DNA of 41,002 nucleotides from Magnetococcales bacterium HCHbin5. GTDB lineage: Bacteria > Pseudomonadota > Magnetococcia > Magnetococcales > Magnetaquicoccaceae. The stretch lies in NCBI GenBank assembly GCA_002753505.1, contig PEAG01000027.1, positions 1-41,002 of the forward strand, given 5' to 3'. The notes beneath the pieces are model-generated. The model made no database searches and was not told the DNA's origin. It was given only the letters and a program-made list of their open reading frames with translations. This document shows positions 1,667-14,658 of the stretch, piece by piece. Made by a program: the position numbers and the translations under genes. Every line of letters starts with the position of its first letter. The stretch's first letter is position 1.

Positions 1667-4606
1667 TTATGCTGACTCAGCATAGGTCGCCGCAAAGATC
1701 GTCTCCGACAGCCACTTCTTGAAGGAGGGATTGTCGCTAAACTGCTTGAACAGCTCGGTGTGATCCGAGAGCAGATCGATGACCGCCCGCTCCAACGCCT
1801 TGTCGTGCTCAATCCGGGCGTTTTGCTTGTCCGAATTCCGCATCGCGTTTTGATACGCCTTGTCAGAGGACACCTTGGTCGGAAGTTCTTCCGCGATGAC
1901 CTTGCCGATTTTATCCGCATCCTTCCAATCAATGCTCCCGAACATTTCGTTGAAATTTCTGAGGATGTTGCTCAGAAAATCCAGCTCTGGCTCCGGTTTG
2001 CCGCCCCCGCCACCAGTGGGTACGGGACCGATTTCGGCATCTGCATCCGGCAATACGATGGCCATGGATGCTCTAGCTTCCACCCGGTAACTGTCCATGT
2101 CGATGGCTTCCAGAACACCCTTGGACAGGTCCTCTTCCTTCGGAGCTGGGAGTTTTGGAACCAGGAAGTTGAGGAAGATGGAGAGCTTTTCCCAATCGGC
2201 ATTGGAAAATGGGAGGATGGAGGCCAGAAAACCATAGGTGCGGGTAAACGCCTTGGCCTTGCCCTTGAAATCCACCTGCCCGTCTTCGTCCAGTTCTCCA
2301 GTGTAAACCGCCACGCAAGCGTCCAGGATCGGATCAAGCCTATCCCGATCTGCCCCGCCAAGGTACAACGTCACCAGATCCTCCACCTGTGCCCAGGCAT
2401 AGACCTGATAACCGTCCAAGCTCGATTTCAGGTCATGCAGTCTGTTCGGGTCGGTCTCCTCGCTGAGAATTGTGGTGCGGTAGTAGGACTCGAACGATTG
2501 GCGGATACCATCGGCATCGTTCATGAAATCGAGAACGAAGGTGTCGTGTTTCTGCGGATGGGCCCGGTTCAGACGCGACAGGGTTTGCACCGCCTTGATG
2601 CCGGATAGGGTCTTGTCCACGTACATGGTGTGGAGCAAGGGTTCATCGTAGCCGGTCTGGAACTTGTCCGCCACGATCAAAAACCGGTAGGGATCTCGCT
2701 TGAAGGTCTCCTCGATGGCGTTGCTGGGAAAACCGTTGAGCGAGGCTTCCGTCACCTTGTCACCACCGTATTCATGTTCACCCGAGAAGGCAACGATGGC
2801 CTGGTACGGGCTCTTGCGCTCTTTCAGGTAATCTTTGAAAGCATGACAATACTGGATAGCGCGGTGAATGCCGCTGGTCACCACCATGGCCCGGGCATGG
2901 CCGCCGACCTTGCGCTGGGCGACGACCTGATCGTGGAAATGGTCGATCATGATCTCCGCCTTCTGGCGGATGGCATGCTCGTGGGACTCGACGTAACGGC
3001 GAAGCTTCTTCTGCGCCCGTTTGGCGTCGAACCGGGGATCCTCCTCTATCGTCTTCATGAGGCGATAGTAGCTGTCCACCGGGGTGTACCGCTTGAGCAC
3101 GTCCAGGATAAACCCCTCCTGGATGGCCTGTTTCATGGTGTAGCTGTGGAAAGGAATATGGCGGATCTTGTCCCCTTCGGGAACAGGGACGCCAAAAACC
3201 TCCAGGGTTTTGTTCTTGGGTGTGGCGGTGAAGGCGAAGTAACTGGCATTGGGAAGAACCTTCCGAGACTCCATCAGACGGTTGATAGCGTCCTCGACCG
3301 ACTCTTCCTCCTCTTCGGCACCATTGGCGGCCAGGGCGATGTTCATCTTGGCGGAAGTGCGCCCGCCCTGACTGGAATGGGCCTCGTCGATGATGATGGC
3401 AAAGCTTCGCCCGCGATGCTCGTCACCGATTTCATCCAGGATGAAGGGGAACTTCTGCACCGTGGTGATGATGATCCGTTTGCCCGCCTTGAGTAAGGAA
3501 CGCAGATCACCGGATCGCTCGGCATGGCCCACCACCGAGGAGACTTGGGCGAACTGCTTGATGGTGTCGCGGATCTGCTTGTCCAGCACCCGTCGGTCAG
3601 TTACCACGATGACGGAGTCAAAGATGGGCTTGCCTCTGGTCTCCAACCCCACCAACTGGTTGCTGAGCCAAGCGATGGAGTTGCTCTTGCCCGATCCCGC
3701 CGAATGTTGGACCAGATAGCGGCGTCCAGCACCGGATGTTTGAGCATCTCCCAGGAGTCTGCGCACCACGTCCAGTTGATGGAAGCGGGGAAAGACCTGT
3801 TTCGGTGGCTTCCTGCGCCCCTTGTCGTCTTTCTCCTCCACTACCTGGGCGTAGTTCTCCAGGATGTCGGTGAGGTTCGGCTTGGCGAGTATCTCCTGCC
3901 AAAGATAGGCGGTTTTGAGTCCATTGGAATTCGGCGGGTTGCCCGCGCCGTCGTTCCACCCCCGGTTGAAGGGTAGAAACCACGATGCCTTGCCCTTCAG
4001 GTGGGTACACATGCGCACCTCGTGGTCGTCCACCGCGAAGTGGACCACGCACCGCCCGAACTGGAACAGCAGCTCCTTGGGGTCACGGTCGCGCTTGTAC
4101 TGCTCGATGGCATCCTCGACCGTTTGTTTGGTCAAGCTGTTCTTCAGCTCGAAGGTGGCGATGGGGAGACCGTTGATGAACAGGACCACATCCAGCGAGA
4201 GCTTGGAATCGTCCTTGGAGAAACGCAGTTGGCGGGTAACGCTGAACAGGTTGGCGGCGAACAGATCCACCGCTTTGGGGTTGCCGGGGGATGGTGTGCC
4301 GTAGAACAGTTCCACACTGGCCGGACGATGATTGATGCCCCGGCGTAACACGTCGATAACCCCACGTTTGGCGATGTCGCCCTGGAGGCGGTTCAGAAAC
4401 TGGAACCGCTTGGGACCGTCATCGGCCAGCCTCAGAGTGTCGCAGGTCGTGGGTTGGGTTGTCTGAAGAAAAGCCAGCAGCTTGGCCGTATCGACGGCGT
4501 GGTCGCGGTCGTAGTCCCTGGAATCACCGGCTACATAGCCCGCCTCGTCGATCAACGAGCGGACGATGAGGGCTTCCAGCCCCTTTTCGCTGGTGTCGGT
4601 ACTCAT
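1667..4606 (-). CDS. hsdR: Type I restriction enzyme, R (motor/nuclease) subunit
   Basis: About 979 residues, a normal HsdR length. HsdR joins HsdM and HsdS, translocates DNA using ATP and cleaves unmodified DNA at a distance. Visible in order: the N-terminal nuclease core with D139 and the E-L-K triad at 153-155; Walker A GSGKS at 304-308; the DEAH box at 407-410 (IIIDEAHSSQGG); FTATP of motif III; and QTLSRLNRAHP of motif VI. A helical C-terminal part follows. I chose ATG at 4606 because it overlaps the darG stop in an ATGA and gives the normal start MSTDTSEKGLEALIV; the open frame extends 11 codons further upstream without support. It is the last gene of the operon, so its expression depends on the genes before it. 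All catalytic motifs look intact. Confidence 0.95.
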   Translation of the reverse strand: MSTDTSEKGLEALIVRSLIDEAGYVAGDSRDYDRDHAVDTAKLLAFLQTTQPTTCDTLRLADDGPKRFQFLNRLQGDIAKRGVIDVLRRGINHRPASVELFYGTPSPGNPKAVDLFAANLFSVTRQLRFSKDDSKLSLDVVLFINGLPIATFELKNSLTKQTVEDAIEQYKRDRDPKELLFQFGRCVVHFAVDDHEVRMCTHLKGKASWFLPFNRGWNDGAGNPPNSNGLKTAYLWQEILAKPNLTDILENYAQVVEEKDDKGRRKPPKQVFPRFHQLDVVRRLLGDAQTSGAGRRYLVQHSAGSGKSNSIAWLSNQLVGLETRGKPIFDSVIVVTDRRVLDKQIRDTIKQFAQVSSVVGHAERSGDLRSLLKAGKRIIITTVQKFPFILDEIGDEHRGRSFAIIIDEAHSSQGGRTSAKMNIALAANGAEEEEESVEDAINRLMESRKVLPNASYFAFTATPKNKTLEVFGVPVPEGDKIRHIPFHSYTMKQAIQEGFILDVLKRYTPVDSYYRLMKTIEEDPRFDAKRAQKKLRRYVESHEHAIRQKAEIMIDHFHDQVVAQRKVGGHARAMVVTSGIHRAIQYCHAFKDYLKERKSPYQAIVAFSGEHEYGGDKVTEASLNGFPSNAIEETFKRDPYRFLIVADKFQTGYDEPLLHTMYVDKTLSGIKAVQTLSRLNRAHPQKHDTFVLDFMNDADGIRQSFESYYRTTILSEETDPNRLHDLKSSLDGYQVYAWAQVEDLVTLYLGGADRDRLDPILDACVAVYTGELDEDGQVDFKGKAKAFTRTYGFLASILPFSNADWEKLSIFLNFLVPKLPAPKEEDLSKGVLEAIDMDSYRVEARASMAIVLPDADAEIGPVPTGGGGGKPEPELDFLSNILRNFNEMFGSIDWKDADKIGKVIAEELPTKVSSDKAYQNAMRNSDKQNARIEHDKALERAVIDLLSDHTELFKQFSDNPSFKKWLSETIFAATYAESA

Positions 4607-5664
4607 ACCAGACCTGCCGGGATGGGGGGCGGCAGCCAACCCTTGCGGCCCAGGACACCCAGGGCGATGCGGATCTGGCGATCACTGAACAATCGTTTGC
4701 GGTCACTCCAGGCATAGATTCTGGCGATGACTTCTTCGGCGGTCTTTGCATGTTCCTTGCTAGCCACCCAATGAACAGTGGCGAGAAGTTCCATGCCGAA
4801 GGGGGTTTCAAAGCCTTCCACCAGATCGGTGACCCGGTCGAAACGGCTGCGTACATCGTCATCCTGATCCAGAACACGGGTGGCATCGTTCATGGCTCCC
4901 GGCACCAATTCCAACTGCTTTTCCGGGTTGTCGCCACCATCCGCGTATCCGGAGATGAAGTAGCCTTCCACTTCCTTGAGAACGTGGCGCAGGTTGTCGG
5001 CATAGGGGCCGTAGTGGTGCTTGACGTAGCGCAGGCGCAGCGGTTGCCCGGCCTCCTGCATGAAGTACATGAGCTTGTGGACCTCCAGTAAGGAGACGAA
5101 GGGGTCCATCAAGCCCCCCAGGTAGCGATGCATGAGTCCCACCAGAGCAGCCCGTCCTGAAGTCATTTTGGGCGGCTCTTTGGCCTTTGCCATCTGTTTG
5201 GCATCAGGCGCGCCCATAGGCTCGTAGACGATGACTTTAACCCCATCCAGCCCTGCCAGTACCTGGACGATCCGTTGCCGGACTTCCGGCCAGTTCAGGC
5301 CGCCCAAGCCGCTGCCCAGGGGCGGAATGGCAATGGAGCGGATTCCCCGGGCCTGGATCTCCCGGGCCAGGTCTGCCAGTCCCGCTTCCACATCCTCCAT
5401 GCGGCTGTTGCCGCGCCAATGGCGTTTGGTGGGAAAGTTGACGATGTAGCGCGGGGTGGTCAGGATGTGGGTATCGAAAATGAACACGCGACCGGGCACC
5501 ACCTCCTTGCGCTGGCAGGCGGACTCGTAGGCCTTGAAATTCTCTGGATAGGCCTTCTTGAACTGCAAGGCGATGCCCCGGCCCATAACCCCCACGCAGT
5601 TGACGGTGTTGACGAGGGCCTCAGCGTCATCGGCGAGGATGTCCCCGTTGGTGAACTCGATCAT
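4603..5664 (-). CDS. darG: DarG-like antitoxin: macrodomain ADP-ribosylglycohydrolase
   Basis: 353 residues. The N-terminal macrodomain (about 1-150) removes ADP-ribose that DarT places on DNA. It has the substrate loop NTVNCVGVMGRGIALQFK (19-36), the motif NFPTKRHWRG with K80, the residue corresponding to the catalytic lysine known from Thermus DarG, and the phosphate loop PPLGSGLGGLNW (114-125). The C-terminal part (about 170-353) is helical, with a HKLMYFMQEAG...HHYGPYADNLRHVL pattern like the DUF4065/Panacea-type C-terminal region of DarG, thought to bind and neutralise the toxin directly. The ATG at 5664 has its own strong ribosome-binding site (GGAGGAGA, about 5 bases upstream) in the 16-base gap after darT, whereas darT has only a coupled GTG. 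This would favour an excess of antitoxin (inference). It overlaps hsdR by ATGA. Confidence 0.92.
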   Translation of the reverse strand: MIEFTNGDILADDAEALVNTVNCVGVMGRGIALQFKKAYPENFKAYESACQRKEVVPGRVFIFDTHILTTPRYIVNFPTKRHWRGNSRMEDVEAGLADLAREIQARGIRSIAIPPLGSGLGGLNWPEVRQRIVQVLAGLDGVKVIVYEPMGAPDAKQMAKAKEPPKMTSGRAALVGLMHRYLGGLMDPFVSLLEVHKLMYFMQEAGQPLRLRYVKHHYGPYADNLRHVLKEVEGYFISGYADGGDNPEKQLELVPGAMNDATRVLDQDDDVRSRFDRVTDLVEGFETPFGMELLATVHWVASKEHAKTAEEVIARIYAWSDRKRLFSDRQIRIALGVLGRKGWLPPPIPAGLV

Positions 5665-5680
5665 GGCGTCTCCTCCCTTC

Positions 5681-6337
5681 TCAATAATACCATTCCGGCC
5701 TCGTCTTCACAGGCGGTTTGTGGGTTGCGGCGTTCAATGCCGCCCAGACCTGCTCCTGAATGGCCCGCGACGGAACTCCGATGCGCGCCACCAAATGCCA
5801 GGGGAAACGACCGTGCAGCAGAAATTCTGCCTGCTTGCCCTCCTTGATGTGGGCCGGGCGAAAATCGGTGGCAGCCACTGACTCCCAGTTGATCTGATCC
5901 AATTCTTCAACCTTGGAACGGAACGGAGCGTAATAAGCTCCTGCATTGGACAAGCTGAAGGCCCAACTATGACCGTTGGCGTTGGCCCAGGCAATGGTTT
6001 GATACAAATCGGCTTCCAGATGGAGAATCGGTCCCTGTCCGCCCCGGTAGGCGAGTTCGGGGTGGTTCCCCATGTAGATCAGATAGAGCATGATGGAACG
6101 CGGACAGAAGTAGAACGGCACGAAGTCGCCCACCCTGGTTCCGGGGTGGCAATCCACGGTCAACTCTTCCACGCGCCGCTTCTTGATGCTGGACATGCCG
6201 ATAGCCGCTGTCGGCCCACCCCGCCGGATCATCTCCGCATCTGAAACCAAGCCGCCACCGGCCAGGATGGCGGGCAAGTTGTCCACATGGGTGATGTGGT
6301 AGATCTTCGGCTGGGCGGGGGGCGCGCTCATGGTCAC
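5681..6337 (-). CDS. darT: DarT-like toxin: DNA thymidine ADP-ribosyltransferase
   Basis: 218 residues, normal DarT (DUF4433) length. DarT uses NAD+ to ADP-ribosylate thymidine in single-stranded DNA at short sequence motifs, blocking replication; some DarTG systems defend against phage. The N-terminal NAD-binding pattern YHITHVDNLPAIL (13-25), arginines at 54-55 of IKKRRVEEL, the PFYFCPRSIMLY segment (74-85) and KQAEFLLHGRFPW with E171, matching the catalytic glutamate, are all present. The toxin therefore looks active. The start is a GTG at 6337 overlapping the hsdS stop as GTGA; an ATG two codons later is an alternative. Lying between hsdS and hsdR, it can be made only together with the restriction system and antitoxin unless an internal promoter exists. 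Confidence 0.92.
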   Translation of the reverse strand: MTMSAPPAQPKIYHITHVDNLPAILAGGGLVSDAEMIRRGGPTAAIGMSSIKKRRVEELTVDCHPGTRVGDFVPFYFCPRSIMLYLIYMGNHPELAYRGGQGPILHLEADLYQTIAWANANGHSWAFSLSNAGAYYAPFRSKVEELDQINWESVAATDFRPAHIKEGKQAEFLLHGRFPWHLVARIGVPSRAIQEQVWAALNAATHKPPVKTRPEWYY

Positions 6338-7749
6338 GCCTCCACCTCTTCCGGCTCTACATCATCCTCCAAGAGGTTATCTCCGTTTTCTTCCTCCAGG
6401 TCTTCCAGCGACTCATCGGCATCGGGTAGGGTGAGCACCACGTCCCGTACATCCAGCTTTCCGGTAACGATATCGGCAATCAGGCGTTCGCGGTATTCAT
6501 AAATGAGCTCAACCTCTTTCTGGGCTTTACCGCTGGTTTGCTCGCTCTTGTGTGATTCTTCCTCAACAAATTTTAGGATTTCCTGCTGTTCCTGAAGTCC
6601 AGGCAGACCAATGGTGAATTCTTTCAGAAAGCTGATTGGCACACGTTGTTGGCCAGCTGCTCCCGTCATCGCCATCTCTCCACCTCGCCTGAATGCAGGT
6701 AACATCATTACTTGATAGAGGAATATTGGGTTAATTTTGGCCTGCGCCCTCAAAACAATGAATTCCGTCGTTCCAAACCCGATCTCAGTCTCAAGTTCAC
6801 CGAGATATGCTCCTTTTCCGTTTTCAAAGCAGGGTGTAATTTTGGCGACAACGACATCACCGCGCCTGAAATAGGTGTAACCGTTCCTCAGCGTTTGGAG
6901 CTTCCCTCGCTGGCTACAATCGATAATCCCTGTGGTTGATATACTCTCCATCGGGAGGAAAACAACTTCGTCTTCATCGCTGAACGTTGATGCACCCTCA
7001 GATTTTGATGGGTTGAAATGAGCAATTTGCTTGATTTTGTAAATCTCCCAATGCGCCGGAATTTCCGGCATCCAGTCTATACCGGTAGGCTTCATGGGGG
7101 CGTTGGGGTCCAGGCCCCGGGTGACCGCTTGGTTGATGATGGCTTGTTTCTGCTCGTTCAACAGGGCAATCAGCCGCCGCTTGTTGCGGATGAGGTGCGC
7201 AGTGCGGCGGCCATGGGCATCCAGGAAGTTCGCAATAGCTGTCTGTTCTTCGGACGGAGGAAAGGCTGACGGCATCTGCTTGAACTCGTCCCAGTACAGG
7301 CGGTTGCGGTCGGAGACGATGCCGCGTGAGAACTTGTTGACCTGCTGCATATAGTCAACGGTACGGAACAGGTATCCGTAATAGCGGGAATTTACCTCCA
7401 AAAAAGGCCGGGCCACCACGTAGGCCGGGCTGATTAGACCATCCACCGGGGCAACACCCACCGCGCCCTGCCACATGCGCATCATGTTGTAGGCGATATC
7501 TCCTTTCGCGGCGCGCTTGTACCTGCTGCGGTCGGTCATCTGTTGCTTGCGCATGCCGTTGTCCATATCCCGCACCCTGACCCCGGTGCGGAGGGAGACC
7601 TCCAGAATCGGCAACTCTTCATGGCCGGTGTCGTTTCTCTGGGCAAACAGACATCCATTCCGCCGCACGTCCCAGTGTTTCGGCACTTGGCCCAACCAGG
7701 GAAGGCCAGAGTCCCTCAATTGGGGATAAGGTTTCAGGTTAAAACTCAT
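6334..7749 (-). CDS. hsdS: Type I restriction-modification specificity subunit
   Basis: 471 residues. HsdS recognises a bipartite DNA site through two target-recognition domains. The start FNLKPYPQLRDSGLPWLGQVPKHW begins TRD1 (about 1-160); the first conserved helix follows, with PPSEEQTAIANFLDA (163-177) and NKRRLIALLNEQKQAIINQAV; the second half repeats the pattern (GIDWMPEIPAHWEIYKI, then TRD2 to about 400, then PGLQEQQEIL and a second helix). The C-terminal tail is very acidic (DADESLEDLEEENGDNLLEDD), which is unusual. DNA for TRD2 (about 6550-7060) is more AT-rich than the rest of the gene, which fits domain exchange. It overlaps the upstream NTPase gene by ATGA and darT downstream by GTGA. 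Confidence 0.93.
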   Translation of the reverse strand: MSFNLKPYPQLRDSGLPWLGQVPKHWDVRRNGCLFAQRNDTGHEELPILEVSLRTGVRVRDMDNGMRKQQMTDRSRYKRAAKGDIAYNMMRMWQGAVGVAPVDGLISPAYVVARPFLEVNSRYYGYLFRTVDYMQQVNKFSRGIVSDRNRLYWDEFKQMPSAFPPSEEQTAIANFLDAHGRRTAHLIRNKRRLIALLNEQKQAIINQAVTRGLDPNAPMKPTGIDWMPEIPAHWEIYKIKQIAHFNPSKSEGASTFSDEDEVVFLPMESISTTGIIDCSQRGKLQTLRNGYTYFRRGDVVVAKITPCFENGKGAYLGELETEIGFGTTEFIVLRAQAKINPIFLYQVMMLPAFRRGGEMAMTGAAGQQRVPISFLKEFTIGLPGLQEQQEILKFVEEESHKSEQTSGKAQKEVELIYEYRERLIADIVTGKLDVRDVVLTLPDADESLEDLEEENGDNLLEDDVEPEEVEA

Positions 7750-10550
7750 GCCAAAATCCCCTTCAGAGTCAAAACGCGCTCAGAAAGATCGTGCTTGAAC
7801 TTGCTATCGTGACATTTATTCAGGGCGTTTTCGGCTTCCCGCAGTGCATCGTCAATTTCTCCCTGTCGTTCGTATACTTCACTCAGCAATTTGTGGTAAC
7901 TCGAAACATGCGCTGTTGCCCTAGAATCTTGGTTGACCAATTCAAACGCCTTCAGAGCAGTTGCCAAGGCTCGATCGAATTCTTCAACTGCCAACTCCGC
8001 TTCGGCCTTGCGGTATAGAAGCCAATGGTCGATGCGATCAGCCGGAACCTTCCCGATGGTTTCGAGGGCTTTTTGAGGCATGTCGGCGATAATGAAGGCT
8101 TTGGCTGCAGCGCGGGCATCATAGGGTTTGAGCTGCTTGCTAGATGAAACGGCGTTAGCAAACTGAATGGATACATCGATGAGTCTATTGAAAAGCGACT
8201 TATCGACTTCCTTTTTTGCTGGGACTGCGGCATTTGTAAGTCCTTCACATGCATTCACCCATTGATTTCTGTCAACATTTGTTGGGGTTCTTGTGAGAGT
8301 CTCAGGCAGCCTTTGCACTAGAGTTAAACAGATTGACGGGTGATGATATCCAAATTTAGAGGTGAATGAGACGAACGCTTCGTAAAATTGGTCAAACCCT
8401 TCCATCGCGGACAGTGAAATGAGATCCGCAAGTTTTTGAACCTGAGCAGGATTTTCAGAGAGATCATTTACGACATTCCCATAAGATCTTAGCCTTGCAA
8501 GTGCCGCAAGAGAAACACGTAGCGGAACCGCTGATGCATCCTTTGTCATCCCATCTATCAAAGCGCGCAGGGATCTCTCCCCGGCTTCCTTGATATCACT
8601 GCTTACCCCATAAAGCATACCGAGATGCGCGATTTGCCCATGGGTTGCGTGCCACTCTGGTCTCATGTCGAGAAGCCGGGTGAAGCAACTGAGAGCCTCT
8701 TGGTGATTCCCACTTCGCCTTAGGGCTTTTCCACGGTGATGTAGAAGTTCTGCCTTCACATCGTCGTCAGCAGCTCTGGAAAGTGCTTTTTCAAATTGCT
8801 CAGCGCATTGACTGTAATATTCCTTCTTCTCGTCTTGACTCTCGATTGTGTAGGCGTGCGCCTCCTTGGCGTCGATGAGGCACATGACTGCCGGCAGCGG
8901 TAAACCAGGAGATATTTCCTTGGAATGAAGCTGTTCGTGCAATGCCTGTTTCGTATTGCTCTCCACTTGGAGGAGAGCGTAGGAGAGCCAGTCTAGGTCA
9001 TGCTCACCCCGTCGTTCGTGCTCGACCTGCAATGGGTTGAGGGCAAGGTGTATTTCTCGGAGCGCGCTCGGCGTCATTTCTCCCTTTTGACCTCCAACGT
9101 ACTCCTCGACGACAATGGCCAGTTCGTTTCCATCAACGCGATCTCGCACGGCCATGCAAACTAAATCATGAATTCTGGCAACGCCCGGAGTGCTGGTCGG
9201 CAACAAGATGGAAAGTTGCTGAAGTGTCCGCGAATTGGAAATGCCAATGAATTTACGCAAGAATTCCAGGTCATGTATTATCAAACCTGAATTGGCAATC
9301 TTTTTGAGTGCCTTAAGCGCACTAGGTTCCAAACGCTTCAATATGTTCCCCATGATCGACTGACTATCACGCCCTGTGATGTTACTTGGAAAGGCCAAGA
9401 TTTCTTGGTAAAGGTCGTTCGATGGAACGTAGTATTGAACAATGAAAGCGTGGGCTGTCGACAGGATCAGCGGACTGAATCTACAGAATTGGATGAATTT
9501 TTTCGCTACATCTGAGGCGCTGTCATAGTCTTCCCCGAGGATTCTGTATGCCGTTTCAATGGAAATCTCAGGAATTAGCAAACACCCTTCACCTGCCATG
9601 ATTGCTGACTGGGAGGTCACTAGGACAACGCCGCCCTTTTGAAACCCGTCCCGAAGTTCATCAAAATCTGTCTGGCCTATCGGCCTTTCGAGACCATCAA
9701 TGACTAGAATAGTCTTGCTGGTGTTGAATAGGCCAACGATATTGATGGGTGTCCCCCCTCGTGATCTTTGAATTGAACTGAGAGAAGTATCCTTTAGCCA
9801 ATCTTCTCCAGAGATCCAAATATAATTTTCGAACGCAATTGCATGGTTGCGGACAAAACTGATAGCTGCTTGGGTTTTTCCTGATCCACTTACACCGTGA
9901 AGTGCGCAAACAGGATGCGTCCCAAAATGCCTAGCCAGGGCATCGCCAATCCCTTGATCATGGATATGGCCATCACATGGCGCGGGCAGCTTTCCGTAGT
10001 ATTCGTAGTTATCAAGATTCTGAGAGAATCCAGGGAAAAACTGTCTGTAAAAAGCCGCGTAATCAGGGTTGTTTGTCGATTGCTGGTAGACTTCCTTTGC
10101 CAGTTCACGGGCATCAAGGAATACGACTTTCCCGCTATGGGCCTGCGCTATAGAAGTCGCATTGAATTTTGCGCGGAAGGATGGCGGCTCTTCCTGGTTG
10201 GTAATCAGGTAAATTTTATCAGGCCCTTGAGGCTGGCGATGGCCAAGTGCATGTTGGATATCACCTTCAAACTTAGGAAATTGAGAAGGATTCTTGCTGG
10301 TTATTTTTTTGCATTCAAAGCAGTCCTCCTCTGTATTATACTCAGCGACAACCGTCGAGCCTTGACTGAATGTGTCAACAGTAGACTTAACAGGCTTGTA
10401 ATTCTTGTTGATGCCGTGGTGGACCATTTTTTGGCCTTCGAGCACAGAGACAACGTTGTGCCCAACGAGTTCAAGCTCAGCCGCACCCAAGCATGCAATC
10501 TCGCCTATCAACTCCTTGATGACTCGTTTTTTGATGTGCTCGTGTATCAT
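7746..10550 (-). CDS. STAND-type NTPase with nuclease-like N-terminus and TPR C-terminus
   Basis: 934 residues. Residues about 1-160 look like a PD-(D/E)xK nuclease fold: a likely metal-binding E-C-K at 79-81, then a KIYLITNQ strand and VVFLDARELAKEV as in restriction-endonuclease-like domains. The catalytic aspartate is uncertain. A P-loop follows, GVSGSGKT at 219-226, Walker B ILVIDG at 281-286, a sensor strand VVLVTSQS, and RFSPLILS (357-364), resembling the GLPL motif of NB-ARC/STAND ATPases. The C-terminal half (from about 560) is helical with TPR-like repeats (for example AELLHHRGKALRRSGNHQEA). This effector-ATPase-repeat layout matches Avs/STAND immune sensors, in which the repeats detect a phage protein and the N-terminus acts as nuclease. 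It overlaps hsdM and hsdS by 4 bases each. The gene is much more AT-rich than its neighbours (22 G/C in 60 at 9241-9300, against 33 in 60 at 11281-11340 in hsdM), suggesting separate acquisition. Target and activity are unknown. Confidence 0.85.
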   Translation of the reverse strand: MIHEHIKKRVIKELIGEIACLGAAELELVGHNVVSVLEGQKMVHHGINKNYKPVKSTVDTFSQGSTVVAEYNTEEDCFECKKITSKNPSQFPKFEGDIQHALGHRQPQGPDKIYLITNQEEPPSFRAKFNATSIAQAHSGKVVFLDARELAKEVYQQSTNNPDYAAFYRQFFPGFSQNLDNYEYYGKLPAPCDGHIHDQGIGDALARHFGTHPVCALHGVSGSGKTQAAISFVRNHAIAFENYIWISGEDWLKDTSLSSIQRSRGGTPINIVGLFNTSKTILVIDGLERPIGQTDFDELRDGFQKGGVVLVTSQSAIMAGEGCLLIPEISIETAYRILGEDYDSASDVAKKFIQFCRFSPLILSTAHAFIVQYYVPSNDLYQEILAFPSNITGRDSQSIMGNILKRLEPSALKALKKIANSGLIIHDLEFLRKFIGISNSRTLQQLSILLPTSTPGVARIHDLVCMAVRDRVDGNELAIVVEEYVGGQKGEMTPSALREIHLALNPLQVEHERRGEHDLDWLSYALLQVESNTKQALHEQLHSKEISPGLPLPAVMCLIDAKEAHAYTIESQDEKKEYYSQCAEQFEKALSRAADDDVKAELLHHRGKALRRSGNHQEALSCFTRLLDMRPEWHATHGQIAHLGMLYGVSSDIKEAGERSLRALIDGMTKDASAVPLRVSLAALARLRSYGNVVNDLSENPAQVQKLADLISLSAMEGFDQFYEAFVSFTSKFGYHHPSICLTLVQRLPETLTRTPTNVDRNQWVNACEGLTNAAVPAKKEVDKSLFNRLIDVSIQFANAVSSSKQLKPYDARAAAKAFIIADMPQKALETIGKVPADRIDHWLLYRKAEAELAVEEFDRALATALKAFELVNQDSRATAHVSSYHKLLSEVYERQGEIDDALREAENALNKCHDSKFKHDLSERVLTLKGILA

Positions 10551-12679
10551 GCTCGTTTCCCGATCACGTCATCCAACAGCCCATCGGTTTCTTTCTCCAA
10601 AGCCCGGATATCAGCCTCGATCTCCTCCAAGGTGCGAAGCGGCTGGGGTTTGTAGAAATGCCGGGTAAAGGATATCTCGTAGCCAATGGTCGTCTTCCCG
10701 GCATCGATCCAGGCATCCGGGGCATGGGGCAACACCTCCCGGCGAATGAAGGCCTCGATACCGCCTTCTTCCAGAGAGGGTATCTGTTCGGTATCGCGCA
10801 GTTCGCTGTCCGGTTCGTACTCCACCACCATCGGTTTTCCGTTGATGGTGCGGTGGTATTGGCCGTGCAAGGCGTCGCGCTGGGCATCCGCCCCCGCCTT
10901 GGCCCTGGCAACCATTCTGATAACCGGTTCGGCCTCTGGATCCTTCACACCCAGGGCCGTCATGAGCAGTTTCTGACGTTTGGCCGTCATCCGCACTCCC
11001 TGAACTTTAGCAGTGGACTCGACCTGCTCCAGAAAACGGTTGAAATCATAGTGAGGACCAGAACCGAACGACGCGACGAGACTCTCCACCAAATCGGCCA
11101 GATCACCTTCCGCCACATCGGCGCAGCTTTTCCTGAACCTCCGCAGCACCCCTGCCGACAGATCCACCCTCAAGCGCAACGGGCGTTCCACCGTCACCTT
11201 CCAGTAGCCGAACGCCTTGTTGGGAAAAACCTTTGATTGCTCACCTTCCTCTCGTTTAAGGAAGGCGTCGCAGATGCGCCGGAGGTCATCCGGGCCGAGT
11301 TCACAGTTCTTCTTGCCCAGATTTTTTCGCAGCGGCTTGAACCACGCCGTGGCATCGATCAACTGCACCTTGCCCTGTCGTTCCGGGCTTTTCCGATTGG
11401 AAAGAACCCAGATGTAGGTAGCGATGCCAGTGTTGTAGAAGATGTTAAGAGGCAAGGCGATGATGGCTTCCAGCCAGTCGTTCTCGATAATCCAGCGGCG
11501 GATGTTGCTCTCGCCCGACCCCGCATCCCCGGTGAACAGAGAGGAACCGTTGTGAACCTCAGCGATCCGACTGCCCAGTGGAGAAGCCTTCTTCATCTTG
11601 CTCAACATGTTGGCCAGGAACACCATCTGGCCGTCGCTGGAGCGGGTGATCAGGCTGTATTCCGGATTGCCGCCATGTTCGATGATGAAACGCGGGTCGC
11701 GAAGTTCTTTCTTTCCCCCAATGCGATCCAGATCAGTTTTCCAAGATTTGCCATAAGGTGGATTGGATAGCATGAAGTCGAATTCCCGCGAGGGAAACGC
11801 ATCGGCGGAAAGGGTGGAGCCAAACTTCATGTTCTCCGCCTCGACGCCTTCGCCCTTGAGGATCAGGTCCGCCTTGCTGATGGCAAAGGTCTCCGGGTTG
11901 ACCTCCTGGCCATAGAGGTGAACCGAGACCTCCTTGCCATGTTCCGCCGCCAGTTTGCCAAGGGTCTCCTCGGCGACCGTCAGCATGCCGCCCGTGCCGC
12001 AGGCCCCGTCATAAACCAGATAGGTGCCGGACTGGATCGCGTCGGCAACAGGCATGAAAATCAAGTAGGCCATCAACTCCACAACGTCGCGAGGGGTGAA
12101 ATGCTCACCAGCCTCTTCGTTGTTCTCCTCGTTGAAACGGCGGATCAACTCCTCGAAGATCGTCCCCATAGAGTGATTGTCCAGACCGGGCAGACGGACA
12201 GACCCATCCTGGTGCAGAACCGGTTTCGGGCTCAGGTTGATCGAGGTATCGAGGAATTTTTCAATCAGATAGCCAAGGACATCTGCTTCCACCAACGTTG
12301 GGAGTTGGTTGCGGAACTTGAATTTTTCCAACACCTCCTGGACGTTCGGGGAGAATCCATCCAGATATGCCTCGAAGTCTGCTCTGAGCTGTTGTTGCTT
12401 GGCCCGGTAGGTCAGGTCGCGCAGGCGAAAGGGGGAGGCGTTGTAGAATGCTTCGCCCGAAGACTGGCGCAAGGCCGCATCCTGGTTAGCCACTCCAGCT
12501 TTGTCGAGTTGCGCCTTCATGCGGAGCACCGCGTCCTTGGTCGGCTCCAGGACGGCGTCCAGTCGCCGGATGACCGTCATGGGCAAAACTACGTCCCGGT
12601 ATTTTCCACGAACGTAGACGTCCCGCAGTACGTCGTCGGCAATGCCCCAGATGAAATTGCTGATATTCAGGCTGCTCAC
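10547..12679 (-). CDS. hsdM: Type I restriction-modification methyltransferase subunit
   Basis: About 710 residues from a GTG at 12679. HsdM transfers a methyl group from S-adenosylmethionine to adenine N6 in the site chosen by HsdS. Seen: the N-terminal SLNISNFIWGIADDVLRD and VVLPMTVIRRLDAVLEPTK helices, GEHFTPRDVVELM before the catalytic domain, motif I DGACGTGG (about 224-231) and motif IV NPPY (306-309). The protein is some 200 residues longer than E. coli HsdM, with an added C-terminal region. I prefer GTG at 12679 because GGGAGG lies 6 bases before it and the protein then begins like other HsdM proteins; the open frame reaches an ATG at 12730 whose ribosome-binding site is too close. 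A GATAAT near that ATG could be a -10 element. It is the first gene of the six-gene operon. Confidence 0.93.
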   Translation of the reverse strand: MSSLNISNFIWGIADDVLRDVYVRGKYRDVVLPMTVIRRLDAVLEPTKDAVLRMKAQLDKAGVANQDAALRQSSGEAFYNASPFRLRDLTYRAKQQQLRADFEAYLDGFSPNVQEVLEKFKFRNQLPTLVEADVLGYLIEKFLDTSINLSPKPVLHQDGSVRLPGLDNHSMGTIFEELIRRFNEENNEEAGEHFTPRDVVELMAYLIFMPVADAIQSGTYLVYDGACGTGGMLTVAEETLGKLAAEHGKEVSVHLYGQEVNPETFAISKADLILKGEGVEAENMKFGSTLSADAFPSREFDFMLSNPPYGKSWKTDLDRIGGKKELRDPRFIIEHGGNPEYSLITRSSDGQMVFLANMLSKMKKASPLGSRIAEVHNGSSLFTGDAGSGESNIRRWIIENDWLEAIIALPLNIFYNTGIATYIWVLSNRKSPERQGKVQLIDATAWFKPLRKNLGKKNCELGPDDLRRICDAFLKREEGEQSKVFPNKAFGYWKVTVERPLRLRVDLSAGVLRRFRKSCADVAEGDLADLVESLVASFGSGPHYDFNRFLEQVESTAKVQGVRMTAKRQKLLMTALGVKDPEAEPVIRMVARAKAGADAQRDALHGQYHRTINGKPMVVEYEPDSELRDTEQIPSLEEGGIEAFIRREVLPHAPDAWIDAGKTTIGYEISFTRHFYKPQPLRTLEEIEADIRALEKETDGLLDDVIGKRA

Positions 12680-12800
12680 GCCTCGCCTCCCTTTGCCCGT
12701 TGGCGGGTAATAATTTGGTTCATTATCCATTTCCCTCTGCCAGACAAAGTTCAGAAGTCTTACCTTCGATTGCGCAGAACAGTCTGCCTGTGCCAGGATT

Positions 12801-12852: not shown

Positions 12853-12878
12853 GTCATGCCCACGAGGACGGGCGTGAC
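12853..12878. repeat. Imperfect palindromic repeat, copy 2, at the end of the reverse transcriptase gene
   Basis: GTCATGCCC (12853-12861), an 8-base loop and GGGCGTGAC (12870-12878) form a 9-base stem with one G-U pair. The reverse transcriptase stop codon (12854-12856) lies within it, so the last codons of that gene are supplied by the repeat. It may act as a terminator-like or processing hairpin between retron and hsd operon, but no U-tract follows. Confidence 0.6.
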
Positions 12879-13813
12879 GAAGGGTTCATGGACGAGGCGG
12901 CAATCGAGGATATTCTCTTCATTTCTAAAGTTAATTGCTTGGCTTTTGGTGTCCATCTCGGATCGATCTGAGCAGCTTCATTAATTCTTCCGATGAGAGA
13001 AGGAAGAAGTTTCAATTTTTCCTCATCACTAAGAGCTGCCTGCAACTGTGCATATCCATCAACAATTTTTTTGTGTCGAATGTTTGGTAGCTTAATCCCT
13101 GAATTGGTCACAACCACTCCAGTGACAATGCGAGGCATGTTTGATGAAAAGTAGTGAATCTTATGAGACTTAAGCCCATGACTACGGATGATGACTCGAA
13201 CATCAGAGAGAAATTTCCTTGTTACCGTTTCTCCAGAGAAGCACATATCATCAACATAGCATGTCATAACCGCTCCTCGACCCGCAGACAGGTGTGCAAT
13301 TTCCTCGAACATGTCGCGATGGGCATAATAAGAGAGGATTGGACTGACACTACTGCCCGTTGCTAGATGACCATAAACGGTAAGAACTTTCGATAGCAGT
13401 GCTGCGACATCAGGACTACATTCCATAGTTTTCAGAAAAAATCGCTTAACAGCGTTTATTGTAACGGAAGGGAAAAATTTTTTGATGTCTACCTTAACCA
13501 TTGGGACATTGGCAGCGTGAGCCTTTGCGTTTGATAAATAGGAATGTCCCTTAATAGCAGAGTGCAGATAATCTGGCGTATCAATCCTGGCAAGAAGATC
13601 ACAAACACGCCTGTGGATAACCTGTAAGCGATGTTTGGGGCATTGAACTGGACGAGGTTTCCCACCACTTGTTTCGAACAGCTTGTAATTATCAACTGGA
13701 TCATTCCTGGCAAACACCTCAAGTTCATTAAGATCTGCGTCAAGAATCTTGGACAGTTTCTGTCTTGATTTTAATTTAAAAAACGGGGACTGGTCCAATG
13801 CATACCGTTTCAC
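12854..13813 (-). CDS. Retron-type reverse transcriptase
   Basis: 319 residues, a typical retron RT length. Retron RTs copy part of a structured RNA (msr-msd) into DNA that stays joined to the RNA; many defend against phage together with an accessory protein. Family marks visible: NAKAH at 95-99 (retron NAxxH), VKVDIKKFFPS with the first catalytic aspartate at 109, HLATGSSVSPILS (149-161), the active site YVDD at 186-189, and VTG at 230-232, the retron-specific triplet. The GTG start at 13813 overlaps the XRE gene stop as GTGA, so the two are translationally coupled. The last 15 or so residues (serine/proline-rich) come from a palindromic repeat and are probably not native. The gene is AT-rich (25 G/C in 60 at 13021-13080). 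No fused effector domain is seen. Confidence 0.9.
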   Translation of the reverse strand: MKRYALDQSPFFKLKSRQKLSKILDADLNELEVFARNDPVDNYKLFETSGGKPRPVQCPKHRLQVIHRRVCDLLARIDTPDYLHSAIKGHSYLSNAKAHAANVPMVKVDIKKFFPSVTINAVKRFFLKTMECSPDVAALLSKVLTVYGHLATGSSVSPILSYYAHRDMFEEIAHLSAGRGAVMTCYVDDMCFSGETVTRKFLSDVRVIIRSHGLKSHKIHYFSSNMPRIVTGVVVTNSGIKLPNIRHKKIVDGYAQLQAALSDEEKLKLLPSLIGRINEAAQIDPRWTPKAKQLTLEMKRISSIAASSMNPSSRPSSWA

Positions 13814-14139
13814 ACATCACCTCTTTGCTCAGTATGATCATCAATATCAGCAATTGTGACAACCCAATCAAGCATTTTTACTACCTTCTCAGCAACAAAC
13901 ACTCTAGTATCGTCAGCGGTCGATATAGTACCGGTTCCAGTCCTTTCCGCGAAAAACAAGAGAGAAGATGTCGGCATGTTGAAGTAAGATGCATACTTAT
14001 CAAGCACATCCATTGAAACTTTTTTGCGACCTGATTCAATTTCAGAAATATAAGATTTTGATAGACCCATTCCTTCTGAAAGCTGGGTCTGGCTTCTATG
14101 GTGAAATAGTCGAACCAATTTCAGGGCTTTATTTAACAT
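13810..14139 (-). CDS. XRE-family helix-turn-helix protein, retron partner
   Basis: 109 residues. Residues about 5-62 form an HTH_3/XRE domain: LVRLFHHRSQTQLSEGMGLSKSYISEIESGRKKVSMDVLDKYA in two continuous pieces, with the recognition helix SKSYISEIESG. The C-terminal part (65-109) is short and of unknown fold. ATG at 14139 follows AGGAGA by about 6 bases. It is coupled to the reverse transcriptase gene by a GTGA overlap. Some retron types carry an HTH protein as their only accessory gene; it may repress the operon, act as effector, or bind the msDNA. Which one cannot be told from sequence. Confidence 0.88.
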   Translation of the reverse strand: MLNKALKLVRLFHHRSQTQLSEGMGLSKSYISEIESGRKKVSMDVLDKYASYFNMPTSSLLFFAERTGTGTISTADDTRVFVAEKVVKMLDWVVTIADIDDHTEQRGDV

Positions 14140-14164: not shown

Positions 14165-14305
14165 GGTTAGGAGTTGCTGAGTAGTTCTCGAAGAAACGAG
14201 ATCAATTTCACAATAAGACTAGCAACTGTGATCACTGTTTTCAGTGTGTTCGGTCTTATCATGACCCGAAACAACCTCCGCAATGCACTCCTACTCAGCT
14301 TCTCT
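14165..14305 (-). ncRNA. Candidate retron msr-msd RNA
   Basis: Directly upstream of the XRE gene and on the same strand, the segment is closed by a perfect 9-base inverted repeat, GCTGAGTAG (14299 to 14291) and CTACTCAGC (14184 to 14176), extended outside a 2x2 mismatch by GAG and CTC. This matches the a1/a2 repeats that bound retron RNAs in length and position. Inside are a long-range stem ATAAGAC/GTCTTAT enclosing CACTG-AAAA-CAGTG, and a hairpin TCTCG-TTTCTT-CGAGA. The 9-mer TTGTTTCGG also occurs in the msr of retron Eco1 (Ec86), though not in the same hairpin here. A clear msr hairpin and branching guanosine were not identified. The same bases encode a 57-codon ORF, so this is one of two competing readings. 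Confidence 0.35.
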
Positions 14306-14340
14306 CGTCTGATGCTCGGTGAATACTTGTTTTTAAACAT
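14167..14340 (-). CDS. Possible small basic, hydrophobic protein (57 residues)
   Basis: ATG at 14340 is preceded by AGAGGAG with a 6-base spacer, an excellent ribosome-binding site, and the frame runs 57 codons to TAA at 14169-14167, 27 bases before the XRE gene. The N-terminus is strongly basic (KYSPSIRREKLSRSALRRLF), followed by a hydrophobic or amphipathic helix (TVITVASLIVKLISFLREL). This resembles small membrane-active peptides, but I recognise no family. It occupies almost exactly the candidate retron RNA, so either the inverted repeat or the open frame may be chance, or both could be real. If real, the retron operon would be small membrane protein, XRE, RT. Confidence 0.4.
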   Translation of the reverse strand: MFKNKYSPSIRREKLSRSALRRLFRVMIRPNTLKTVITVASLIVKLISFLRELLSNS

Positions 14341-14349
14341 AGCTTACTC

Positions 14350-14400
14350 CTCTAAATGCACCCAGGGCGAAATTGCTCTGAGCGTCGCATACATTTAGAG
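14350..14400 (-). promoter_or_regulatory. Leader hairpin overlapping a ribosome-binding site
   Basis: CTCTAAATG and CATTTAGAG form a perfect 9-base inverted repeat 51 bases end to end. On the minus strand the 3' arm runs straight into the GGAG that serves the 57-codon ORF, so the stem would hide part of the ribosome-binding site. It could be an attenuator, an operator for the XRE protein, or part of the retron RNA leader. Confidence 0.4.
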
Positions 14401-14434
14401 ATAGAAGTCAGACGAGATTTACTCCCAACCTTCC

Positions 14435-14464
14435 AGCCAAAATCGTCTCGCAACGATTTTGGCT
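14435..14464. repeat. Perfect 12-base hairpin
   Basis: AGCCAAAATCGT, a 6-base loop CTCGCA, and ACGATTTTGGCT pair without mismatch. There is no clear U-tract on either side, so termination would be weak. It may belong to a dispersed repeat family or be a bidirectional terminator remnant. Confidence 0.6.
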
Positions 14465-14658
14465 TTACCCCCCCTACCCAACCCACTGCTGGCCGACGGA
14501 CCCGATCCCATGCGACCATCGACACAGACAACAGTGCCGGGGGGGGAGATGTAGAGACCGAGGCCTCCGCGAACCGTCGAAACAGTTCCATGGACAATGC
14601 GACATCTTCCCTACCAAGCATATGCGAACTCTATCAGCAAAATGTTGCACTGGTCAAG

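Follow-up and report, generated by a model that had tools for sequence, protein, structure and literature searches.

The stretch of DNA analyzed here (the window) comprises 41,002 nucleotides from Magnetococcales bacterium HCHbin5, and on its minus strand a small ORF, an HTH gene, and a reverse transcriptase (RT) gene follow one another in this order (Table 1). The HTH protein and the RT are 109 and 319 amino acids long, respectively, and the HTH gene overlaps the start of the RT gene by 4 bases. A preliminary description of the small ORF and its surroundings had noted an inverted repeat upstream of an XRE gene, with the ORF on the same strand, and this gene corresponds to the HTH gene found downstream. 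The retron RT motifs NAxxH, YxDD, and VTG are present in the RT translation (SNAKAHAAN, CYVDDM, and IVTGV), and the RT relatives of known structure are retron RTs. Also, the second-best PADLOC model for this protein is RT_III-A (E 2.4e-40); the best models being retron families, the RT does not fall in the DRT2 group.

Table 1. Genes and predicted promoter and RNA features of the operon, listed in the direction of transcription.
Feature	Sequence	Positions	Strand	Observations
Palindrome, candidate HTH operator	TTCGCTTCCAGCGAA	14666-14680	.	Just upstream of the -35 box
Predicted promoter, sigma-70 type	TTGACC, 18 nt, TAGAGT	14628-14657	minus	TG before the -10 box; predicted start near 14621
Predicted retron a1, transcript 5' end	AUGCUUGGU	14613-14621	minus	Pairs with 14312-14320; compensatory changes, same position in other clades
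msr-type hairpin L1		14571-14588	minus	All pairs kept, 1 two-sided change against L045
msr-type hairpin L2		14554-14567	minus	Leader comparison; Bradyrhizobium-type set; window against L045
P0 hairpin	AGCCAAAATCGTTGCGAGACGATTTTGGCT	14435-14464	minus	11 pairs kept, 4 two-sided changes against L045; 5 two-sided in set A2
P1, 5' strand	GGTTGGGAGT	14421-14430	minus	Partner at 14165-14174; position shared by most clusters
P2, 5' arm	TCTCGTCTG	14409-14417	minus	Pairs with 14303-14311 within the ORF
P3, 5' arm, anti-Shine-Dalgarno strand		14389-14401	minus	-19.3 against -10.5 +- 2.1 in shuffles (window)
P3, 3' arm, covering AGAGG of the Shine-Dalgarno		14349-14361	minus	Same shuffle test
Shine-Dalgarno	AGAGGAG	14347-14353	minus	Six bases ahead of the ATG
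Small ORF, 57 aa		14167-14340	minus	Basic head, two predicted helices, hydrophobic C-terminal helix; conservation, dN/dS, AlphaFold
Predicted retron a2, ORF codons 7-10	ACCGAGCAU	14312-14320	minus	Bases +20 to +28; comparative pairing
P2, 3' arm	CAGACGAGA	14303-14311	minus	Directly 3' of a2
P4, 5' arm, formerly taken as a1	GCTGAGTAG	14291-14299	minus	Inverted repeat
P4, 3' arm, formerly taken as a2	CTACTCAGC	14176-14184	minus	Inverted repeat
P1, 3' strand	ACTCCTAACC	14165-14174	minus	Shares bases with the stop codon of the ORF
Type VI retron HTH protein (XRE-type)		13810-14139	minus	PADLOC HTH_VI, E 1.8e-30; Pfam HTH_3
Type VI retron RT		12854-13813	minus	PADLOC RT_VI, E 3.1e-87; Pfam RVT_1

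Type VI retrons are described as the association of an RT, a DNA-binding protein, and a small auxiliary protein (PMC8541194), the class being that of Mestre et al. 2020 as cited there. The window contains an RT of the RT_VI family, an HTH_VI gene beside it, and the gene of a small auxiliary protein upstream, in the order small ORF, HTH, RT that type VI retrons share. Moreover, the a1/a2 helix that in retrons generally flanks the msr and the msd has a predicted counterpart here, described below. Because all the testable type VI features are present, the locus is, judged from its sequence, an added member of this known class of bacterial anti-phage elements; nothing was found that excludes its membership. 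Relatives of this type are carried on phages and mobile elements, and the same operon is present in the putative type VI elements of Shewanella phage MuM16-1 and of the phages ST147-VIM1phi7.1, P2_2H1, and KS5 (PMC8541194). In the Klebsiella phage element, a 51-aa protein occupies the place of the small ORF of the window. For MuM16-1, the auxiliary protein has been named as p31 (PMC8541194); however, p31 is annotated on the opposite strand, and a better candidate is a 48-aa ORF that lacks an annotation and immediately precedes the HTH gene (L055:1480-1623). No description of the mechanism of type VI retrons and no match to the base-level RNA architecture reported here were found in the literature searched, and no Rfam family reached its gathering score anywhere in the window.

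For the comparison, relatives of the RT and the HTH protein were drawn from genomes, phages, plasmids, and viral contigs, giving 45 distinct loci in 24 sequence clusters. Close genomes yielded one near relative only. The nearest relative, L045, belongs to the same order and a different family, and its RT is 66% identical to that of the window. Both sequences can be aligned over 14680-12939 with 67% identity, which argues that the unit starts at the operator and extends almost to the end of the RT gene. A second RT gene (L014, G000:C158:1726-2703; an open frame of 398 aa) lies in the same genome as the retron and resembles the retron RT weakly. As for the surroundings of the operon in the window, a defense island occupies 1667-12730 on the minus strand and comprises the type I restriction genes for HsdM, HsdS, and HsdR, with the DarT toxin and the DarG antitoxin between HsdS and HsdR. 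Phage tail genes adjoin this island, and inside the type I restriction operon lies the gene of a 934-aa protein (7746-10550) for which a short TPR match only was obtained.

The preliminary description had also read the 57 codons of the small ORF as a basic head followed by a hydrophobic helix, and this reading is borne out by the relatives. A homologously placed, intact ORF of 47-68 codons, ending shortly before the HTH gene, is found in 44 of the 45 loci, and the encoded proteins again combine a basic head with a hydrophobic helix. The dN/dS of the ORF is 0.42 between the window and L045 and mostly 0.1-0.6 elsewhere. On these comparative grounds, the small ORF is a real coding gene under purifying selection. 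The sole broken copy (L003, 3450-3630) is interrupted within the helix by a TAG in frame, and it retains both the RNA helices and the remaining frame. The AlphaFold prediction for the 57-aa protein, whose input alignment left out the phage and plasmid rows, places helices at residues 8-27 and 30-56, the second one with good confidence. No PADLOC or Pfam family matched the protein above the cut-offs, and its Klebsiella homologue matches PHROG families of unknown function only. That the protein acts on the membrane is a guess, because several relatives have a stretch of only moderate hydrophobicity.

Along with the reading frame, a conserved RNA fold runs through the same bases. Five helices (P0, P1, P2, P3, and P4) were first recognized in clade alignments built from sequence alone. 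One of them, P4, is the inverted repeat noticed beforehand, which is indeed there, with 9 perfect pairs spanning 124 bases and a further GAG/CTC past a 2x2 mismatch that brings it to 12. In L045, this helix corresponds to GCCGGGCAG/CTGTTCGGT, where 9 of 9 pairs are kept, two of them changed on both sides and three on one side, and by this comparison the repeat is more than chance. The repeat had been proposed as the a1/a2 of the retron, which would make the enclosed coding region the msd. Although its conservation against L045 with two-sided changes is in line with that assignment, P4 taken by itself scores weakly in many loci (mean z -0.9) and is internal to longer conserved helices of the coding region, and far upstream of it would lie the msr-type hairpins and the transcript's 5' end; this reading is thus very improbable, and P4 was rejected as the outer helix.

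Considering the five helices jointly, all 49 pairs of the window are kept in L045, eight of them with two-sided changes, and when the 3' partners are slid by 1-3 columns the cells paired fall to 35-47%, as against 100% in register. In nine Bradyrhizobium-type loci 95% of the cells are paired, and in six loci of the E. coli and Klebsiella phage type 100%. These paired percentages lean upward because the fold models derive from each set's own members. The two-sided changes do not depend on the set-derived models in the same way, and 27 such cells are observed in the Bradyrhizobium-type loci versus 7.8 in shuffles; nor does a codon test, in which synonymous codons were shuffled with the protein fixed: of 32 loci, 31 had a more stable RNA with their native codons (mean z -2.6, and -3.3 for the window). 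In the marine-type set, P2 as drawn fits poorly, with 56% paired. The P1 arms share a consensus, so that swapping them between loci does not discriminate. Taken together, a conserved RNA fold runs through the ORF, and RNA and ORF hold at once. The comparison of homologous loci suggested in the preliminary description, covariation as the mark of an RNA and synonymous bias as the mark of an ORF, gave both in the same bases. Since the two coexist, neither a lack of covariation nor a history of frame-breaking changes, which had been named as the outcomes that would remove both readings, is what the loci present.

The ribosome-binding site had been called ideal. By comparison of the loci, it is locked in a conserved hairpin, P3, that had gone unnoticed, and the site would thus normally be hidden. 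The mean pairing probability of the Shine-Dalgarno is 0.89 in the window, and its hairpin is at least 1 sd better than shuffles in 33 of the 45 loci. Across clades the position of P3 is constant and its sequence variable, the arms being CTCTAAATG/CATTTAGAG in the window, CCTTATG/CATAAGG in E. coli, and CCTCTTGGG/CCCAGGAGG in the marine-type set. A conserved ORF with a conserved lock would also be expected if the ORF were a real small gene whose translation is merely limited by the RNA fold, the template of the retron being elsewhere. This alternative is very improbable given the msr-type hairpins of the leader, the conserved motif that follows a1, and the covariation of an a1/a2 helix that reaches into the ORF; moreover, no other candidate template was seen beside the RT.

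The interval first considered, 14165-14340, does not contain the predicted start of the retron RNA, which lies some 280 bases ahead of the ORF. In most clades, two successive hairpins follow a conserved GA-rich/CGCC motif in the leader, and in the Bradyrhizobium-type set two-sided changes affect 4 of the 6 pairs of L1. P1 was at first favored as a1/a2 and was dropped once the msr-type hairpins and a helix farther upstream were found. It is this last helix (14613-14621/14312-14320) that is taken as a1/a2, because of its position, its covariation, the msr-type hairpins, and the promoter, whose end lies 6-7 nt ahead of a1 in the window as well as in several clades (in L045, the -10 box TGATATAGT is 7 nt away). 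A helix in this place is found in about 35 of the 45 loci, and it is not clear in a minority (L059, L068, L063, L061, and L018). Its strands correspond to GCGUCCAGG/CCUGGACGC and GUGUCUAGG/CCUGGACAC in marine-type loci, CGCUUGG/CCAAGCG in the Bradyrhizobium-type, and UUGGUUAGUU/AAUUAACCAA in E. coli, and three of its pairs show two-sided changes among seven marine-type loci. With all helices included, the comparison of the window with L045 covers 71 pairs and gives 99.3% of the cells paired, 10 two-sided changes, and one pair lost, versus 33-45% in the slid controls. For the Bradyrhizobium-type set, 94.2% of the cells of 64 pairs are paired, and 26 pairs are changed on both sides versus 10.0 in shuffles. 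The E. coli set reaches 97.7%, and the fourth set 86.3%, the slid controls of the four sets being at 33-53%.

P1 and P2 cross the predicted a1/a2, since their 5' strands lie inside it and their 3' strands outside. In most clades examined, the 3' arm of P2 begins 0-1 nt after a2, which suggests that P1 and P2 form a coaxial pseudoknot with a1/a2 rather than two rival folds. As for the transcription of this RNA, the palindrome upstream of the promoter is the only site of the window at up to 1 mismatch, where 0.01 would be expected, and palindromes of the type TTCGC-N(1-6)-GCGAA are present in the upstream region of 26 of the 45 type VI loci; hence, it is likely the operator of the HTH_VI protein.

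Based on this architecture, we consider it probable that the template RNA of this type VI retron doubles as the mRNA of a small effector, that the lock and the state of the RT and its DNA decide on translation, and that the peptide stops the phage. A single transcript would begin at a1, about 14621, and would fold with a1 paired to a2 inside the ORF, two msr-type hairpins, and a lock of P1, P2, and P3 hiding the Shine-Dalgarno. Both start signals, the Shine-Dalgarno and the ATG, fall within the predicted template, from the msr hairpins to a2, and a given molecule could therefore be either reverse-transcribed or translated; judging from the position of the template, an RNA copied by the RT and removed by RNase H could no longer be translated. 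The bolder of the earlier suggestions, in which one RNA serves as template and as message, is thereby supported by the comparative data, with the restriction that a single molecule could hardly be both at once. In the resting cell, the RNA would be RT-bound and locked and little protein would be made. Infection would then disturb the RT, its DNA product, or the lock, and the message would be translated into a 57-aa cationic helical peptide that would damage the membrane and stop the phage. A role in phage defense is in keeping with the defense-island context, and abortive infection is its likely form, the RT and the DNA state deciding whether the small cationic peptide is made. For the cell, one molecule may serve as both sensor and weapon. 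This scheme, however, provides no opening step for the strong P3 hairpin.

Two opposite directions of control could be considered. In the first one, RT-DNA made from some RNAs would carry strands that compete with the lock (P1 3' and P2 3') and would open other RNAs in trans, derepressing their translation. The template holds the 5' strands of P1 and P2, so that a DNA copy would present the competing sequences, and the approximate title reported for a 2025 preprint on a type VI retron, "Reverse transcribed ssDNA derepresses translation of a retron antiviral protein," favors DNA as the derepressor. Nevertheless, the complementarity of such a DNA would extend to the Shine-Dalgarno and the start codon, and P3 must still open; this direction is plausible, if somewhat short of an even chance. 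In the second one, copying of the start region together with RNase H would decapitate the message, the DNA would act as an antisense, and inhibition of the RT or destruction of the DNA in infection would free translation. This is what a predicted a2 inside the ORF, with the start signals within the template, would lead to, and it matches the usual logic of retrons, where loss of the RT-DNA complex frees the toxin. On the other hand, nothing in it would open the strongly conserved Shine-Dalgarno lock, and it is put forward as a tentative possibility. Judged by the anatomy alone, repression by reverse transcription is no worse a fit than derepression by DNA. Whichever the direction, we lean slightly toward the view that, across type VI retrons, a single stretch of pseudoknotted RNA is both the template and the place where translation of the effector starts, with DNA synthesis as the switch.

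Several known systems share parts of this arrangement. Classical retrons, for example Eco1 (Ec86), have an RT related by sequence and a layout of a1/a2 and msr hairpins that is also predicted here; unlike them, the a2 of the window would lie inside a protein-coding gene, and the RNA would contain a Shine-Dalgarno lock. In type I toxin-antitoxin mRNAs of the hok or tisB type, a small hydrophobic protein is encoded in a message closed by RNA structure, as would be the case here, whereas the RNA described here is part of a retron operon that also encodes an RT. In DRT2 systems, an RT and an RNA control the making of a small toxic protein and the repeated gene is built as DNA (PMC12039810); the joint government of a small protein by RT and RNA is also proposed for the present locus, where, in contrast, the ORF is already intact in the RNA. 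The result is a concrete base-level model, specifying a1/a2, lock, and template, of how a type VI retron could work when the template RNA itself encodes the effector and no separate gene is needed for it. Such effectors will be overlooked wherever retron RNA is annotated as non-coding.

Finally, intact homologues of the retron are present in E. coli. The chromosomes L069, L070, and L071 (including O157:H7) carry type VI retrons of the same architecture in P2-like prophages, where they are placed between the replication and portal genes.
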